From: Flavobacteriales bacterium | GTDB lineage: Bacteria > Bacteroidota > Bacteroidia > Flavobacteriales_D > Crocinitomicaceae | Direction of reading: 5' to 3' | NCBI GenBank assembly: GCA_947453715.1 | Contig: CANGHX010000010.1 | Span: forward strand, 1 to 33,843 | DNA: 33,843 bases | Shown here: piece after piece, positions 11,826-22,826 of the stretch | How the letters are laid out: every line of letters starts with the position of its first letter | Numbering within the stretch: the first letter of the stretch is position 1 | Notes under the pieces: model-generated | Told to the model about the DNA's origin: nothing | Database searches by the model: none | Seen by the model: only the letters and a program-made list of their open reading frames with translations | Program-made: the position numbers and the translations under genes

Positions 11826-12341
11826 ATGAACGCACGTGTTGAAGCAGCATTAAATGATCAAATTCAAAAAGAAGGTTCTTCTTCTCAGTTTTACTTAGCA
11901 ATGGCATCTTGGGCAGAAAATAATGGCCTAAATGGAACTTCAAAATTTTTATATACTCATTCTGACGAAGAGCGTTTTCATATGCTTAAATTAATCAAGT
12001 TTGTAAACGAAAGAGGTGGGAAAGCTTTGGTTCCTGCAATCAATCAACCACCAGTTGAGTACAAAGGTTTAGAGGATGTTTTTGAACAGTTATTGAACCA
12101 TGAATTAATGGTGACTGACAGTATCAATAATTTGGTAGACATCTGTTTACAAGAGAAAGATTATTCTACACACAACTTCGTTCAATGGTATGTTTCTGAG
12201 CAATTAGAAGAAGAAGCATTAGCGAGAACGATTCTTGATAAATTAAAATTAATTGATGGAGATAAAGGTGGAATGTACATGTTTGATAGAGATTTAGAAA
12301 ACATCGTAAGCCAGACAGCTACTCCACCAGTAAAAGCATAA
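11826..12341 (+). CDS. ftnA: non-heme ferritin
   Basis: MNARVEAALNDQIQKEGSSSQFYLAMASWAENNGLNGTSKFLYTHSDEERFHMLKLI..; ferroxidase residues of the bacterial ferritin family; 171 aa. Confidence 0.93.
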   Translation: MNARVEAALNDQIQKEGSSSQFYLAMASWAENNGLNGTSKFLYTHSDEERFHMLKLIKFVNERGGKALVPAINQPPVEYKGLEDVFEQLLNHELMVTDSINNLVDICLQEKDYSTHNFVQWYVSEQLEEEALARTILDKLKLIDGDKGGMYMFDRDLENIVSQTATPPVKA

Positions 12342-12366: not shown

Positions 12367-15300
12367 ATGAAGAAACTTTCCTTAATAATCGTTTGTGCAT
12401 TTTTCCTTTGTTATGGATTTTCACAAACGTCCTATCGCTTTAGTAATTTTACGATAAGTGATGGTTTATCACAAAGTTCTGTTACAAATATCATTCAAGA
12501 TCATTCGAATGCACTTTGGATTGGAACTCAAGATGGGTTAAATCGTTATGATGGAAAGAGTTTTGAAATTTTTAATTCCGATAATACTCCTGGAATAGAA
12601 AGTGAATACATTAAATGTTCTGCAAAAACTCCAAATGGAAATCTATGGTTTGGAACCGCAAATGGGCTGACTGAATACGATATAGAATCAGAATCATTTA
12701 AAACATATTCGATTACTCAGAATTCAGTTTTACAAATAGAAAATATATCTGTTGATGAAATTGGAGACTTATGGTTAGCTTCTTTATCAAGTGGTCTTCT
12801 TCGTTTTTCTAGTGTAGATAAAAAATTTGTTCCCTACACTTCCTATTTACCAAGTAAAAAAATTCAAACTATTTTATACCTTTCAAAAGGAAATGTATTA
12901 GTTAATACTGAAGATGCTGGAATTTATTTGTTTAATAGTCTAAAAAAAGAAGCTACTAAAATTAAAATTCCATACAAAAAAGGAACCATTGGAATCGTAA
13001 CTAAATTGGTTAAACCTTCTGATGATATTGTATTATTTTGCACAACAGAAGGGATTTTTCAATATCAAATATCAACTGGAAAAACAACACCAAAATTCCA
13101 AAAATTATTTAAAGAATATGGTGCTATCAGCGTAACAGATATTCACATCACTGATGAGAAAAATTGGATTTTAACAAGTAATGAAGGCCTATTTACCATT
13201 TTAACAGATGGAACAATCCTTCATAACACTGAAGATATTTTTCAAAAACATGCTTTACTAAATAATAAATTAAGTGTTCTATTTATTGATAACTCAGGAA
13301 CATATTGGATTGGTTCTGAAAGAGGAGTCAGTAGTTTCAATCCAAAAAAACAAGACTTTTTAGGTGTTGGACCAAGTGGTAATTTAAAACAAGGATTACC
13401 AAGTGCAACCATTTGGTGTTTTGGAGAAGATGAAAAAGCAGAGTTTCTATACATTGGTACAGATTCGGGTATTTCAGTTTACAATCGCAAAAAAAGAAAT
13501 TATACCCATTGTTTCAGAAATGTAGAAAATCAAGTTGTTTCTGTAAGAAGTTTATATGTTTTAAAACAAGGAAATCTATTAGTTGGATGTGATGATGGAT
13601 TGTTTGAATTATCCATCTACGGAGAAAAAGATTATCAATTCAAGAAAATAGAGTTTGCTAAAGGAATTCAAAGTTTAACACATAATCGTATTTATTCAAT
13701 TGTTCATTGGAAAGAGGACAAATATTTTTTAGGAACAAAAGGTGGTGTGATTTTATATGATCGAAAAACTAAAAAAAGTACCATTTTTGAACACAGTGAG
13801 AAATCAAAAAGTATTAGTGTAGGATTGTGTAGATTAGTATTTAAATCAAAACAAGGGGATGTGTTTTTTGCTACAAGTACTGGTGGGCTAAATGTGTTAA
13901 TAGACAAAAAAGACAATCCTCAAATCGTTCCATATAAATGGAATACCGAACTTAAAAATCTTTCAAAAGATTATATTACTTCCGTTTTTCAACTAAATGA
14001 TCATGAATTTTTATTTGGAACTTTAGGTTCAGGGATCATTCACTGGAATGAAAACAGTAAAAATGGAAAGGTATATAATAAATCTAATGGCTTACCAAAC
14101 AATGTAGTATATAGTGTTCTGAAAGATAAGAGTAATAATATCTGGTTAAGTACTAATAAAGGTGTAAGCAGGTTTAATTTAGAGAATAAAAGCATTACCA
14201 ACTACGAGGAAATTCATGGTCTTATGAGTAATGAGTTTAACTTAGGTGCTTATTTAAGTTCTAAAACTGGATATTTATATTTCGGTTCTATCTACGGATA
14301 TAACTTCTTCAATCCTTTAAATGTTGGAAAACATTCAGGGAAAATCTCAGTTATTTTTTCTCGTTTTAGATTAGACAAATCATGGTTGAAACCAAATGAA
14401 AAAGGATCACCGCTTAAAAAACCAATTACAAATACCAAACAAATTGAACTAAGCTACAAACAAAGAAGTTTTACCATTCAATTTATACCAACAGATATTA
14501 GTAATCCTGAATTAACTAATTATAAATATGTTCTTGAAGGTTCCGATGAAGGAGAGGTTTATCTTAATAATTCGAATGAAATTCATTTCCCATCTTTATC
14601 ATTTGGTGAATATAGATTAAAGGTTTACGCAAGAATTGGTCAAGGTGAATGGAATTCAAATCCAAGCACTATTAATATAGTGATAGCTGCTCCATTTTGG
14701 TGGACATGGTGGTTCTGGTTAATTATTGGTCTTGTGATTTTTGGTTTAATTCGAGTGTTTATTCGTCAGAAAATTGAGTTAGAAAGAAGAAAATTAGTCA
14801 GATTAGAAATGAAAATTGCTGAACGAACTAGAGAAATTAGAGCTAAAAATGCTCAAATTGAAACTCAAAACGAAGTAATTGAAAAAGAAAAAAATAAAGT
14901 ACTTGAACAATCACGATTATTACAAATTGAAAAAGATAAAACAGAACGTTTAATTCGTAAGATTATCCCAGAATCGACCGTAGAAAATTTAAAAAAACAC
15001 GGAAAATTAGGAGCTAGATTGTATAAAGAAGTTTCTGTTTTATTTACTGATTTTGTTGGTTTTACAAGAAAATCAGAAGCCATGAATCCACAAGATTTAG
15101 TGAATAAATTAGACTTCTATTTCCAAAAATTTGATGAGATAATCGTTGCTAATAATCTTGAAAAAATCAAAACAATTGGTGACGCATACATGTGTGCAGG
15201 TGGTGTTCCTGTTAGAAATAAAACGAATGCTGTCGATTCATGTATTGCAGCCCTGAAAATTCAAGAATTTATAGAGAATACCAACAACGATCTAATAAAA

Positions 15301-16257
15301 GAAGGAAAAGCTGAAGAGGTTTGGGAACTTAGATTAGGAATTAATACCGGTGAAGTTACAGCTGGTATGATTGGAAATGAACGATTGGCATATGACATAT
15401 GGGGTTCTACAGTAAATAGAGCTCAACAAATGGAAATGTTGTGCGCTCCTGGTAAAGTGACTGTCACACAAAGTACTTATAACTATATCAAACCATTTTT
15501 TGAATGTGATTTCATAGGTGAAACACTTTCTAAAAGTAAGCGTGAAAAAATAGAAATGTATGTTGTTAAAAGAATTAAACACCAATTATCTTCAGATGAT
15601 AAAGGTTTAGTTCCAAACGAACGATTCTTTCAAATATTAAATTTATACTTATATAGCTCTATCAATTATAACAAGGCTGAACGACATATTACAAAAGTAT
15701 TGAGTGAAGGACTTTCTGATAAATTACATTATCACAGTTTGGAACACATGAAAGATGTAGTTAGAGCCGTAGAAAGCATTGCATTGACTGAAAATGTTAC
15801 TGATGAAGGATTGTTTTTATTAAAATCCGCAGCTTCCTATCATGATGCTGGATTTATTGAACAATATGACAAAAACGAACCAATTGGTGCACGATTGGCA
15901 GAAGAAATTTTACCTAAATATGGATACACTGAAAACCATATAAAACAGATAAAAGAATTAATATATGTCACTCAAATTCCGCATGCTCCAAAAAATAAAT
16001 TAGAAGAAATTATTTGTGATGCTGATTTAGATTACTTAGGAAGAGATGATTTCCATGAAATAGCTGATCGCCTACGAATTGAATTAAGAGAACATGGGAA
16101 AATTGACAGTGATCGAAAATGGGATGAAATACAAGTGCAATTTTTGACAAATCATAAATACTTTACTCAAACTGCTATTAATACGAGAAGAGCAAAAAAA
16201 TTACAGCATTTAGAAGAAATTAAAAAAAGATTAGAAGAGAATAATTATAAAGATTAG
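12367..16257 (+). CDS. sensor protein: Reg_prop beta-propeller, Y_Y_Y, TM, coiled coil, class III nucleotide cyclase, HD phosphohydrolase
   Basis: Signal peptide; about 11 visible propeller repeats (WIGTQDGLNRYD, WFGTANGLTEYD, WIGSERGVSSFN, WLSTNKGVSRFN etc.); Y_Y_Y-like region; TM WWTWWFWLIIGLVIFGLIRVF; cyclase LFTDFVGFT / KIKTIGDAYM / AYDIWGSTVNRAQQM; HD motifs YHSLEHMKDVV / YHDAGF / CDADLD. Confidence 0.9.
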   Translation: MKKLSLIIVCAFFLCYGFSQTSYRFSNFTISDGLSQSSVTNIIQDHSNALWIGTQDGLNRYDGKSFEIFNSDNTPGIESEYIKCSAKTPNGNLWFGTANGLTEYDIESESFKTYSITQNSVLQIENISVDEIGDLWLASLSSGLLRFSSVDKKFVPYTSYLPSKKIQTILYLSKGNVLVNTEDAGIYLFNSLKKEATKIKIPYKKGTIGIVTKLVKPSDDIVLFCTTEGIFQYQISTGKTTPKFQKLFKEYGAISVTDIHITDEKNWILTSNEGLFTILTDGTILHNTEDIFQKHALLNNKLSVLFIDNSGTYWIGSERGVSSFNPKKQDFLGVGPSGNLKQGLPSATIWCFGEDEKAEFLYIGTDSGISVYNRKKRNYTHCFRNVENQVVSVRSLYVLKQGNLLVGCDDGLFELSIYGEKDYQFKKIEFAKGIQSLTHNRIYSIVHWKEDKYFLGTKGGVILYDRKTKKSTIFEHSEKSKSISVGLCRLVFKSKQGDVFFATSTGGLNVLIDKKDNPQIVPYKWNTELKNLSKDYITSVFQLNDHEFLFGTLGSGIIHWNENSKNGKVYNKSNGLPNNVVYSVLKDKSNNIWLSTNKGVSRFNLENKSITNYEEIHGLMSNEFNLGAYLSSKTGYLYFGSIYGYNFFNPLNVGKHSGKISVIFSRFRLDKSWLKPNEKGSPLKKPITNTKQIELSYKQRSFTIQFIPTDISNPELTNYKYVLEGSDEGEVYLNNSNEIHFPSLSFGEYRLKVYARIGQGEWNSNPSTINIVIAAPFWWTWWFWLIIGLVIFGLIRVFIRQKIELERRKLVRLEMKIAERTREIRAKNAQIETQNEVIEKEKNKVLEQSRLLQIEKDKTERLIRKIIPESTVENLKKHGKLGARLYKEVSVLFTDFVGFTRKSEAMNPQDLVNKLDFYFQKFDEIIVANNLEKIKTIGDAYMCAGGVPVRNKTNAVDSCIAALKIQEFIENTNNDLIKEGKAEEVWELRLGINTGEVTAGMIGNERLAYDIWGSTVNRAQQMEMLCAPGKVTVTQSTYNYIKPFFECDFIGETLSKSKREKIEMYVVKRIKHQLSSDDKGLVPNERFFQILNLYLYSSINYNKAERHITKVLSEGLSDKLHYHSLEHMKDVVRAVESIALTENVTDEGLFLLKSAASYHDAGFIEQYDKNEPIGARLAEEILPKYGYTENHIKQIKELIYVTQIPHAPKNKLEEIICDADLDYLGRDDFHEIADRLRIELREHGKIDSDRKWDEIQVQFLTNHKYFTQTAINTRRAKKLQHLEEIKKRLEENNYKD

Positions 16258-17306: not shown

Positions 17307-18827
17307 ATGCCAATAATTGGAAAGCTAATTAAAAAGACATCTGAGATTGCATACAACAGAAACCTGAATAAAGGTATTGAATATGTCAATCAGTTAAAAA
17401 CGCTTTCTTGGCTTTTAAACAGAGCTAGAAGAACAGATTTTGGTAAACATTACCACTTTAATATATCACTTAAAAGTGTAGATATTGTTAGTGAATATCA
17501 ACAAACTGTTCCTATTACCAATTATGAAGAATTCTATGAAGATTGGCTAAAAAAATCAATCGAGGGAGAAAAACACCACACTTGGCCTGGTAAAATTTCT
17601 TATTATGCTCTGTCATCAGGGACAACTGGATCTCCAAGTAAACGAATTCCCGTTACAAGACAAATGATTCGTTCTTTTCAAAAAACAAGTATTAAGCAAT
17701 TATCTACTCTTCATAATTTAAATTTACCAAATACCCTTTTTAGCGCAAATTTTTTAGTAGTAGGGGGATCATCAAACTTGACAGAGATTGGAACACACTA
17801 TGAAGGTGATTTAAGTGGTATTCTCAAAAAACATACATCAATCGTTGCAAGTCCTTTTACAAAACCTGAAAATGATATTGCAAAAATTAAAGATTGGAGT
17901 AAAAAGCTTGAAAAACTAGTTGAAAAAGCTCCTTCATGGAATATAGGAATAATGGCTGGTGTTCCGAGTTGGTGCATCATGTTACTAGAAAGAATTATCG
18001 AAAAATATGAATTAAATTCAATTCATGATATTTGGCCAAATTTTGAAGTATACGTTCATGGTGGTGTTTTCATGCAACCATACATTCCAAGACTAGAAAA
18101 AGTAATTGGTAAAAAGGTTCACTTATTAGATACATATTTGGCAAGTGAAGGATATTTTGCCTACCAAACTTCTCCCGACAGAGAAGGAATGAAACTGTTA
18201 TTAAATAATGGTATTTTCTATGAATTTGTGCCTTTTAACAGTGACTTTTTTGATGAATTCGGTAATGTAAAAGATAAACATAATGCATTCTCTTTATCAC
18301 AAGTTCAAGAAGGTATAGATTATGCACTTGTAATTTCAACAAATGCTGGACTTTGGAGATACATGATCGGTGATTTAGTTCGATTTGTAAATGTCGATCA
18401 AAGAGAAATTAAAATCACAGGACGTATTAAACAATTTTTAAGTTTAAGCGGCGAACACTTATCTTTAGATAATATCAATTCTGCAATTCAACATGTTTCT
18501 GAAAAAATGAACGTTGAAATACCAGAATTTTGTATTTATGCAGACCTAGAAAACCAACGTCATAGTTGGTATATTGGTTCTAATTCTTCTTTTGATTCTA
18601 AACTATTTATCGAAAATTTAGACAAACAATTAGGTGAAATTAACGATGATTATAAATCTTGTAGAAAATACAATTTAAATAATCCAACTATTGAGGTGAT
18701 TGATCCAAATCAATTTTATTTATTCATGGAAAAAATTGGGAAAGCAGGATCTCAAAATAAATTTCCTCGTGTTTTAAATACAGATCAATCCCTAAATTGG
18801 ATTTCATTTCTTTCAGGAAAATTATAA
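17307..18827 (+). CDS. GH3 auxin-responsive promoter family protein (acyl-adenylating, amido-synthetase-like)
   Basis: 506 aa; WLLNRARRTDFGKHYHF; YYALSSGTTGSPSKRIPVT adenylation motif; YLASEGYFAYQ; GLWRYMIGDLVRF; ITGRIKQFLSLSGEHLS. Confidence 0.9.
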   Translation: MPIIGKLIKKTSEIAYNRNLNKGIEYVNQLKTLSWLLNRARRTDFGKHYHFNISLKSVDIVSEYQQTVPITNYEEFYEDWLKKSIEGEKHHTWPGKISYYALSSGTTGSPSKRIPVTRQMIRSFQKTSIKQLSTLHNLNLPNTLFSANFLVVGGSSNLTEIGTHYEGDLSGILKKHTSIVASPFTKPENDIAKIKDWSKKLEKLVEKAPSWNIGIMAGVPSWCIMLLERIIEKYELNSIHDIWPNFEVYVHGGVFMQPYIPRLEKVIGKKVHLLDTYLASEGYFAYQTSPDREGMKLLLNNGIFYEFVPFNSDFFDEFGNVKDKHNAFSLSQVQEGIDYALVISTNAGLWRYMIGDLVRFVNVDQREIKITGRIKQFLSLSGEHLSLDNINSAIQHVSEKMNVEIPEFCIYADLENQRHSWYIGSNSSFDSKLFIENLDKQLGEINDDYKSCRKYNLNNPTIEVIDPNQFYLFMEKIGKAGSQNKFPRVLNTDQSLNWISFLSGKL

Positions 18828-21014: not shown

Positions 21015-22826
21015 TTACTTATTATTGACTTTTGGATTCTTAATTTCATAAAATTTACAATTCGCATTCGTCAATTTAACGCTTTCAACTTTTCGATCCC
21101 ATAAATACACTTTCAGTAATACATCTTCTTTCGTTATTTTTTCAAAAATAAAATGATGTAAAAAAGTATCATTGATCAATTGTCCTTGAAATGCAGTCTC
21201 AAAGGAATAATAGGAATTATTAGTAACTTGATTTTCTTTGTTAAACGTTTGTAGAACCAATTGAATTTTGTTTTTAGGCTGGTATGTTTCTAATTTCCCT
21301 GCAACACTAATCTGTAATGCTTTTCCAAAAAAACGGTTCAAGGAATCTTCTTCTAATATAGTAATGAACTCTTGTGCTAAATTCCTATATGAAACTGGTG
21401 AAGATGTATAAAGTAATTCTTTTTTCAACGGAACTTTTCGTTTAAAAGCAATATAAGTGTTCGCTTGATCATAAACGAGTGTATCGTAATAATCCAAAAT
21501 ATTCTTATTTGTGAATTTATCTGTATTTGTGATAATATAATCTGTCAAAATTGCATCTGGATTTGAAATATTATAAGCACTTGCCTTTACTTTTTGAAAT
21601 GATTCTCTAAAAGGCCAATTCCAAGCCATTGTTTGATAAATCATCAAACTTTCAGAAGGTTTAATACGTGATTTTACTTTATTGTAAACCAAATCTGTCA
21701 TTCGTTGTTCTGGTGAAAATGCAGATGAATGAATGTTCATGTGAAACACAAATATAACTGGGAAAATTAAAAATAAGTATTGAGTTTTCTGAGTTAATTT
21801 AAATTGATCAATAAAATAAAATAGCATTAATAAAAATGGTATGACTAAATAAAATGCCGTACGATCCTCAGGGTAATTTACTTTTAAAAAGTTCGCTAAA
21901 AATAAAATAGCAACAATGTTACCAAAAAATAGTACTGAATAAATTAGAAATTGATTCGTGAAATAATCTTTTAATTTTGAATTAAAAATGAGTTTGACCA
22001 AAAAGTAAATGAACAAGATAAATAACCCCAAATAAATATACATCAAAGAATCATCTTTCAAGAAAATAATATATTCATTCAATGTTTTTCCTGTAACATC
22101 CCATATTCCTTCCAATGAACCATAATACAACGCCCCGTGTTCCTTTAACTCAAAACTAAATTTGATAAAAGGAAAAAGCAGTAACAAAAATGCCAGATGA
22201 ATAACTAATCGGATAAAATGTTGTCGCTTTTCTAATGAATTAAAATGAATCAATTGATCTAAACATACGATTCCAAAAATTATTAAACTAGTTACTATAA
22301 AAGTCAAATTAGCTGAAATAGCCAGAATTAATAGCAAATAGGTTAATACGATTGAACTTAATTGATAATTTTTTAAATAATTTCTCAAATACACTAAAGC
22401 GCAGATAATAAATCCTAGAGACAATCCGTATCCTCGACAAAGAGCGAAATATTCAATAATTATCGTTAAAGAACAAAATGTAATTAATGCGATTAATCTT
22501 AAATTTTTCGTCTTTAACTCTTTCAATAATTCTCTTAATCCAAAAAAATAAAGGACGAAAGCGAATAGGTTTGGAAGTCGATAAAGACTAATATTATCCT
22601 TGAAAATTGGATATAATTTATTGCCAATAAAAGAGTTCAATAAATGATTATTTGCATCCCAAACAATCGATTCTCCTTTAAAATCTCCTTGATAAATATA
22701 AAACATATAGGTTGCTATCTCATCATGAAGAGTTTCATTATAAAAAACACGAATGAGTAGATAAGAAAAAACAAAAAGGAATAGCGAGATCGTTATTCCT
22801 TTTTCAAATTTTGATTGTTGAATCAC
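21015..22826 (-). CDS. polytopic membrane protein, GT-C glycosyltransferase-like
   Basis: 603 aa; many TM segments; first loop HDEIATYMFYIYQGDF..DANNHLLNSFIGNKLY..YRLPNL resembles ArnT/PMT-type GT-C enzymes. Confidence 0.6.
   Translation of the reverse strand: MIQQSKFEKGITISLFLFVFSYLLIRVFYNETLHDEIATYMFYIYQGDFKGESIVWDANNHLLNSFIGNKLYPIFKDNISLYRLPNLFAFVLYFFGLRELLKELKTKNLRLIALITFCSLTIIIEYFALCRGYGLSLGFIICALVYLRNYLKNYQLSSIVLTYLLLILAISANLTFIVTSLIIFGIVCLDQLIHFNSLEKRQHFIRLVIHLAFLLLLFPFIKFSFELKEHGALYYGSLEGIWDVTGKTLNEYIIFLKDDSLMYIYLGLFILFIYFLVKLIFNSKLKDYFTNQFLIYSVLFFGNIVAILFLANFLKVNYPEDRTAFYLVIPFLLMLFYFIDQFKLTQKTQYLFLIFPVIFVFHMNIHSSAFSPEQRMTDLVYNKVKSRIKPSESLMIYQTMAWNWPFRESFQKVKASAYNISNPDAILTDYIITNTDKFTNKNILDYYDTLVYDQANTYIAFKRKVPLKKELLYTSSPVSYRNLAQEFITILEEDSLNRFFGKALQISVAGKLETYQPKNKIQLVLQTFNKENQVTNNSYYSFETAFQGQLINDTFLHHFIFEKITKEDVLLKVYLWDRKVESVKLTNANCKFYEIKNPKVNNK

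Follow-up and report, generated by a model that had tools for sequence, protein, structure and literature searches.

A conserved, uncharacterised sensor-cyclase-HD protein of Crocinitomicaceae with a repeated arginine-to-glutamine change in its cyclase domain

The window (the whole stretch of 33,843 nucleotides that was analysed) carries a gene for a sensor-cyclase-HD protein and, directly upstream, a gene for a ferritin-like protein, with the following features.

11826..12341, + strand: ferritin-like protein gene (Pfam Ferritin, 6e-40), 25 nt upstream of the sensor-cyclase-HD gene
12367..16257, + strand: sensor-cyclase-HD gene, intact ORF, 1296 aa
12367..12423, + strand: probable signal peptide, aa 1-19, read off the sequence MKKLSLIIVCAFFLCYGFS
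12433..14331, + strand: Reg_prop beta-propeller ectodomain, ~aa 23-655 (Pfam Reg_prop, 2e-21; alignment with 4a2l and 3v9f)
14500..14685, + strand: Y_Y_Y domain, aa 712-773 (Pfam, 2e-11)
14701..14766, + strand: transmembrane segment, ~aa 779-800, read off the sequence WWTWWFWLIIGLVIFGLIRVFI
14767..14964, + strand: long signalling helix or coiled coil, aa 801-866 (AlphaFold2, helix 2-66 of the cytosolic model)
15019..15570, + strand: class III nucleotide cyclase domain, aa 885-1068 (Pfam, 5e-43; Foldseek matches 5o5l, 5oyh and 4p2f; conservation)
15427..15429, + strand: codon CAA, Q1021 at the transition-state Arg position (homologue alignments)
15619..16239, + strand: HD-fold domain, ~aa 1085-1291 (family profiles, AlphaFold2, Foldseek)
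15730..15747, + strand: YHxxxH motif, aa 1122-1127, invariant in two homologue sets
15841..15846, + strand: HD pair H1159-D1160, invariant in two homologue sets
16018..16020, + strand: distal metal ligand D1218, invariant in two homologue sets
16132..16143, + strand: QxxF motif, Q1256/F1259 (Q in 80/80, F in 80/80)

Residues 1-779 of the window protein align piecewise with the solved HTCS ectodomain 4a2l (E 2e-81), and the Pfam matches together with the 4a2l and 3v9f alignments identify an input module of the HTCS type, made of Reg_prop propellers and Y_Y_Y. The signal peptide and the transmembrane segment would place both on the periplasmic side. One hydrophobic segment (~779-800) and a long helix connect this ectodomain to the cyclase, and the AlphaFold2 model of the cytosolic part reaches an overall pLDDT of 91.5. 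Pfam and the predicted structure bear out the order of domains that the initial annotation had read from the letters (Reg_prop, Y_Y_Y, transmembrane segment, helix, cyclase, HD), and its proposal that an HTCS-type input is wired to a cyclase proved right at the level of anatomy (Pfam, 4a2l alignment). The Bacteroides HTCS sensors (4a2l, 3v9f) share the signal peptide, the Reg_prop propellers, Y_Y_Y and the single transmembrane segment with the window protein, whereas a class III cyclase and an HD domain here take the place of their histidine kinase-receiver-AraC output. The Pfam list of the window protein contains neither a histidine kinase nor a receiver, so it is not a hybrid two-component protein.

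The HD domain proposed for the C terminus escaped Pfam in the window protein, and searches of Pfam or PDB with that HD by itself brought up nothing beyond chance matches, but relatives match PF01966 with 42.9, 34.9, 29.9 and 28.1 bits, over the cut-off of 22. Family profiles were therefore used in place of the window HD alone. At E<=1, PF01966 picks up 28 of the 35 homologous HD segments, the best of them at 1e-10, and the HD family profile finds the HD hydrolase 2pq7 in PDB at 3e-8. Because the matches that Foldseek listed for the whole cytosolic model were all cyclases, we folded the HD separately. AlphaFold2 gave an HD fold with a pLDDT of 96.6, whose top PDB neighbours were an HD-superfamily hydrolase, YpgQ and PDE4/PDE5 (Foldseek prob 1.00, best E ~1e-3, TMq 0.51-0.70). 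The predicted metal ligands H1123/H1127, H1159-D1160 and D1218, all of which had been put forward as candidates from the sequence, are invariant in 41 homologues and in 80 named-record loci, two sets that may overlap in part.

Membership of the class I phosphodiesterases (PDEs) was ruled out by profile, since PF00233 had no match above its cut-off across 297 Bacteroidota genomes; the best matches scored 20-24 bits and mostly spanned ~45 positions. The H(X3)H(X25-35)D metal motif of class I PDEs is present in the HD, whose YHxxxH...HD...D arrangement resembles that of these enzymes, and the invariant Q1256xxF1259 resembles their purine-binding Gln and Phe clamp, a putative equivalence judged from the motif. 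YpgQ and other HD-superfamily hydrolases (5dqv, 2pq7) have the HD fold and its ligands in common with the window HD, although they are single-domain proteins with 16-19% identity to it.

The genetic setting of the HD domain links it to cyclases. Among 12 HD loci from other Bacteroidota, picked by their HD match and sharing ancestry, 7 place a class III cyclase gene 14 nt to 2.9 kb from the HD gene, and at six of those seven it encodes a receiver-cyclase of ~345 aa. With about ten cyclase candidates per 4-5 Mb genome in the phylum-wide sample, chance would rarely produce such a proportion by our informal estimate, though the loci are related by descent. In L208, picked since its match spanned both genes, two cyclase genes, the HD gene and a YitT-DUF2179 gene lie in succession, separated by 6-39 nt (L208:2313-7810), the cyclase and HD genes being 39 nt apart, in an apparent operon. 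Given the 7 of 12 neighbourhoods, the HD and the cyclase probably function as a pair, and the fused proteins look like the joined version of a pair that cooperates elsewhere. Across L196-L207, the receiver-cyclase gene that recurs beside the HD gene is accompanied by an adjoining ORF of ~124 aa.

These observations bear on the substrate of the HD domain, which is likely to hydrolyse cAMP, judging by its motifs and partners. Hydrolysis of cAMP or cGMP is the activity that we favour, with NTP hydrolysis of the YpgQ kind as the main rival; YpgQ acts on NTPs. An NTP or another nucleotide is a possible substrate because the PDEase_I profile falls below its cut-off and the structural matches are distant (E 1e-3, TMq ~0.5-0.7). 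In its wider form, this alternative holds that the HD acts on an NTP or dNTP like YpgQ, on (p)ppGpp or on a cyclic dinucleotide, that the cyclase is a separate or regulatory output, and that two signalling systems are coupled by the fusion in place of one closed cycle. In its favour, the fold and profile matches are headed by YpgQ and a generic HD hydrolase, PF00233 is not reached, and some other Bacteroidota carry this HD on YitT-DUF2179 membrane proteins or on a TPR protein, fusions that may have nothing to do with cAMP. We nevertheless regard it as somewhat unlikely, since the repeated fusion to, or proximity with, class III cyclases is best explained by a shared nucleotide and the invariant QxxF is a feature of class I PDE type.

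The window genome is not alone in this architecture, which is conserved as a trait of the family. Of 149 related genomes searched, 140 have a match to the cytosolic part, and full-length versions of ~1300 aa occur in most members of Crocinitomicaceae; named records (Fluviicola, Brumimicrobium, Lishizhenia) set the family there as well. Some related genomes have sensor-less versions of ~520 aa, and a second group of ~570 aa is a receiver-cyclase-HD paralogue (for example L062). Outside the order, a complete cyclase-HD match is almost absent among the matches listed for 396 genomes sampled across the phylum. In the rest of Bacteroidota, this HD stands alone, is fused to YitT-DUF2179 (one protein in L196, L199 and L200) or sits on a TPR protein. 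Several metagenome-assembled genomes with titles such as Kuenenia, Chryseobacterium, Planktophila and Chitinophaga hold clear copies of the Crocinitomicaceae type (L079, L080, L096 and others), and from these copies their titles look mislabelled. In the literature searched, we found no description of a Reg_prop or propeller protein with an adenylate cyclase or of a cyclase-HD fusion of such architecture, and no biochemistry for the sensor-cyclase-HD architecture.

The sensor-cyclase-HD protein is conserved and uncharacterised, and its most unusual part is the repeated Arg-to-Gln change in the cyclase. The cyclase profile was recovered in the window protein, with Guanylate_cyc (PF00211) matching residues 885-1068 at E 5e-43 and 147 bits against a cut-off of 21.9. 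Both metal Asps, D895 and D939, are present and conserved in homologue alignments, as are the transition-state Asn (N1017) and the adenine-specifying pair K935/D1010, which aligns with AC9 C2. Rv1625c-type membrane class III adenylyl cyclases resemble the window protein in their helix and class III cyclase domain; unlike it, they have no propeller input and no HD, and they have the transition-state Arg. In the window cyclase, this Arg is replaced by Q1021 even though the PF00211 profile and the fold fit, a substitution that had escaped the first reading of the sequence.

The same Gln is found in the three nearest genomes (G010, G003 and G009), and all 47 other compared sequences have Arg. Among the 80 named-record loci, the position is Arg in 73, Gln in 6 and a gap in 1; Gln is the sole substitute, and every row with Gln is a full-length sensor-bearing protein. 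On a tree built without the Q1021 column, Gln needs four changes, three of them forced by well-supported branches, and an HD-only tree gives three changes to Gln. The Arg-to-Gln change arose at least three times within the family, and a single origin was rejected, one Gln clade having a p-AU of 5e-9. Sequencing error was ruled out by the presence of Gln in the three near genomes and in other lineages. Inside the Q clade, dN/dS of the cyclase is 0.00-0.04, which shows that this domain is retained and not decaying; together with the intact ORF, these values rule out gene decay. Between the Q clade and its neighbours, dN is 0.21-0.22 for the cyclase and 0.07-0.09 for the HD, while cyclase dN for other genus pairs is 0.04-0.13. 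High divergence between clades and low dN/dS within the Q clade point to one fast change that has been fixed since.

The Asn-Arg pair occurs in most class III cyclases (PMC4215837), and the mammalian enzyme reportedly cannot do without it (Yan et al. 1997, as related in PMC4215837). Loss of activity is likely but uncertain, because Ma1120, with Ala in place of the Asn, still works (PMC4215837) and thus tolerates change at another transition-state residue. By its residues, the Q1021 cyclase is probably much weakened or retuned. Full activity, with Gln supporting the reaction or shifting specificity so that the protein makes and destroys its nucleotide like its Arg relatives, strikes us as unlikely: all other catalytic residues are retained, Gln alone ever replaces Arg and strong purifying selection on the cyclase persists, but such activity would run against the reported need for the pair and against the faster cyclase on the Q-clade branch (dN 0.21 vs 0.08 for the HD), unlike most genus pairs. 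It is very improbable that the Q1021 subunit forms a heterodimer with the receiver-cyclase-HD paralogue, which would supply the Arg as in mammalian C1/C2 halves; the Q-clade genomes G010 and G009 keep the paralogue (in G000 it is cut by a contig end), that of G010 keeps its Arg, and the C1 half of AC9 has the metal Asps and no Arg at the same place (alignment), but the N-terminal halves of the putative partners differ, one a membrane sensor and the other a soluble receiver.

From the observed domains, residues, predicted fold, conservation, repeated Arg-to-Gln change and cyclase-HD genetic linkage, we propose a sensor-controlled protein of cyclic-nucleotide turnover in which, in the window lineage, the cyclase half is impaired or retuned and output comes mainly from the HD half, a tentative reading to which we give slightly less than an even chance. 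The protein would work as a one-piece dimer, in which periplasmic HTCS-type propellers and Y_Y_Y bind a ligand, the signal then running via the transmembrane segment and the long helix into a dimer of class III cyclase domains to which an HD phosphohydrolase is appended. Across most of the family, the cyclase would make cAMP, as suggested by K935/D1010-type specificity, the HD would most likely hydrolyse the same cyclic nucleotide, and the ligand would set the balance between making and destroying. In the window lineage, Gln in place of the transition-state Arg would leave the cyclase much weakened or retuned, and its retained metal- and nucleotide-binding residues would probably serve to regulate the HD. 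The suggestion that one chain both makes and destroys its messenger is thus plausible for the family, since the cyclase and the HD occur across Bacteroidota either in one protein or as neighbours, and doubtful for the window protein, because its catalytic Arg is Gln. By eye, none of the five Crp/Fnr-like ORFs in the genome, which is 93% complete, has the phosphate-cassette Arg for cAMP, so no cAMP effector was identified.

In GGDEF-EAL and GGDEF-HD-GYP composites, a single sensor protein both makes and breaks one second messenger, and maker domains that have degenerated can turn into sensors of nucleotides. Compared with the window protein, they use cyclic di-GMP chemistry and different breaker domains. 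CAPE (combined adenylyl cyclase with PDE) of Marchantia, in which both activities were measured (PMC5159850), joins a class III cyclase to an HD-superfamily PDE in one chain as the window protein does, but it is eukaryotic, its PDE is N-terminal and of class I (PF00233), and it has no propeller sensor. By analogy, the window protein may work like GGDEF-EAL proteins and CAPE with an HTCS input. A bolder version, which we consider possible but rather doubtful, is that sensor-bearing cyclase-HD proteins repeatedly become sensor-gated phosphodiesterases, in which the cyclase, its transition-state Arg always replaced by Gln, still binds ATP and metal and regulates the HD as a sensor of energy or nucleotides, and that they represent a new bacterial family of HD-type cAMP PDEs; they would then parallel, on the cAMP side, the degenerate GGDEF-EAL proteins.

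Little has been described of cyclic-nucleotide signalling in Bacteroidota, and a sensor-cyclase-HD protein present throughout a family, together with a linked HD that stands alone elsewhere, would define a cAMP off-switch for the phylum. It would also give a simple test system for maker/breaker fusions, with the repeated Arg-to-Gln changes as natural mutants for asking whether cyclase halves turn into regulators as degenerate GGDEF domains do.

Elsewhere in the window, a 603-aa ORF between the two CoA-transferase subunit genes (21015-22826, - strand) is without a Pfam or NCBIfam match, and 17307-18827 (+ strand) encodes a GH3-family protein related, far below cut-off, to the OlsH (lyso-ornithine lipid synthetase) model. 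The ferritin gene upstream of the sensor-cyclase-HD gene was also missed by the initial annotation. Among the 56 orthologues with room for one, 31 have a ferritin ORF immediately upstream in the same direction, making it a probable operon partner and hinting at a link to iron or oxidative stress.
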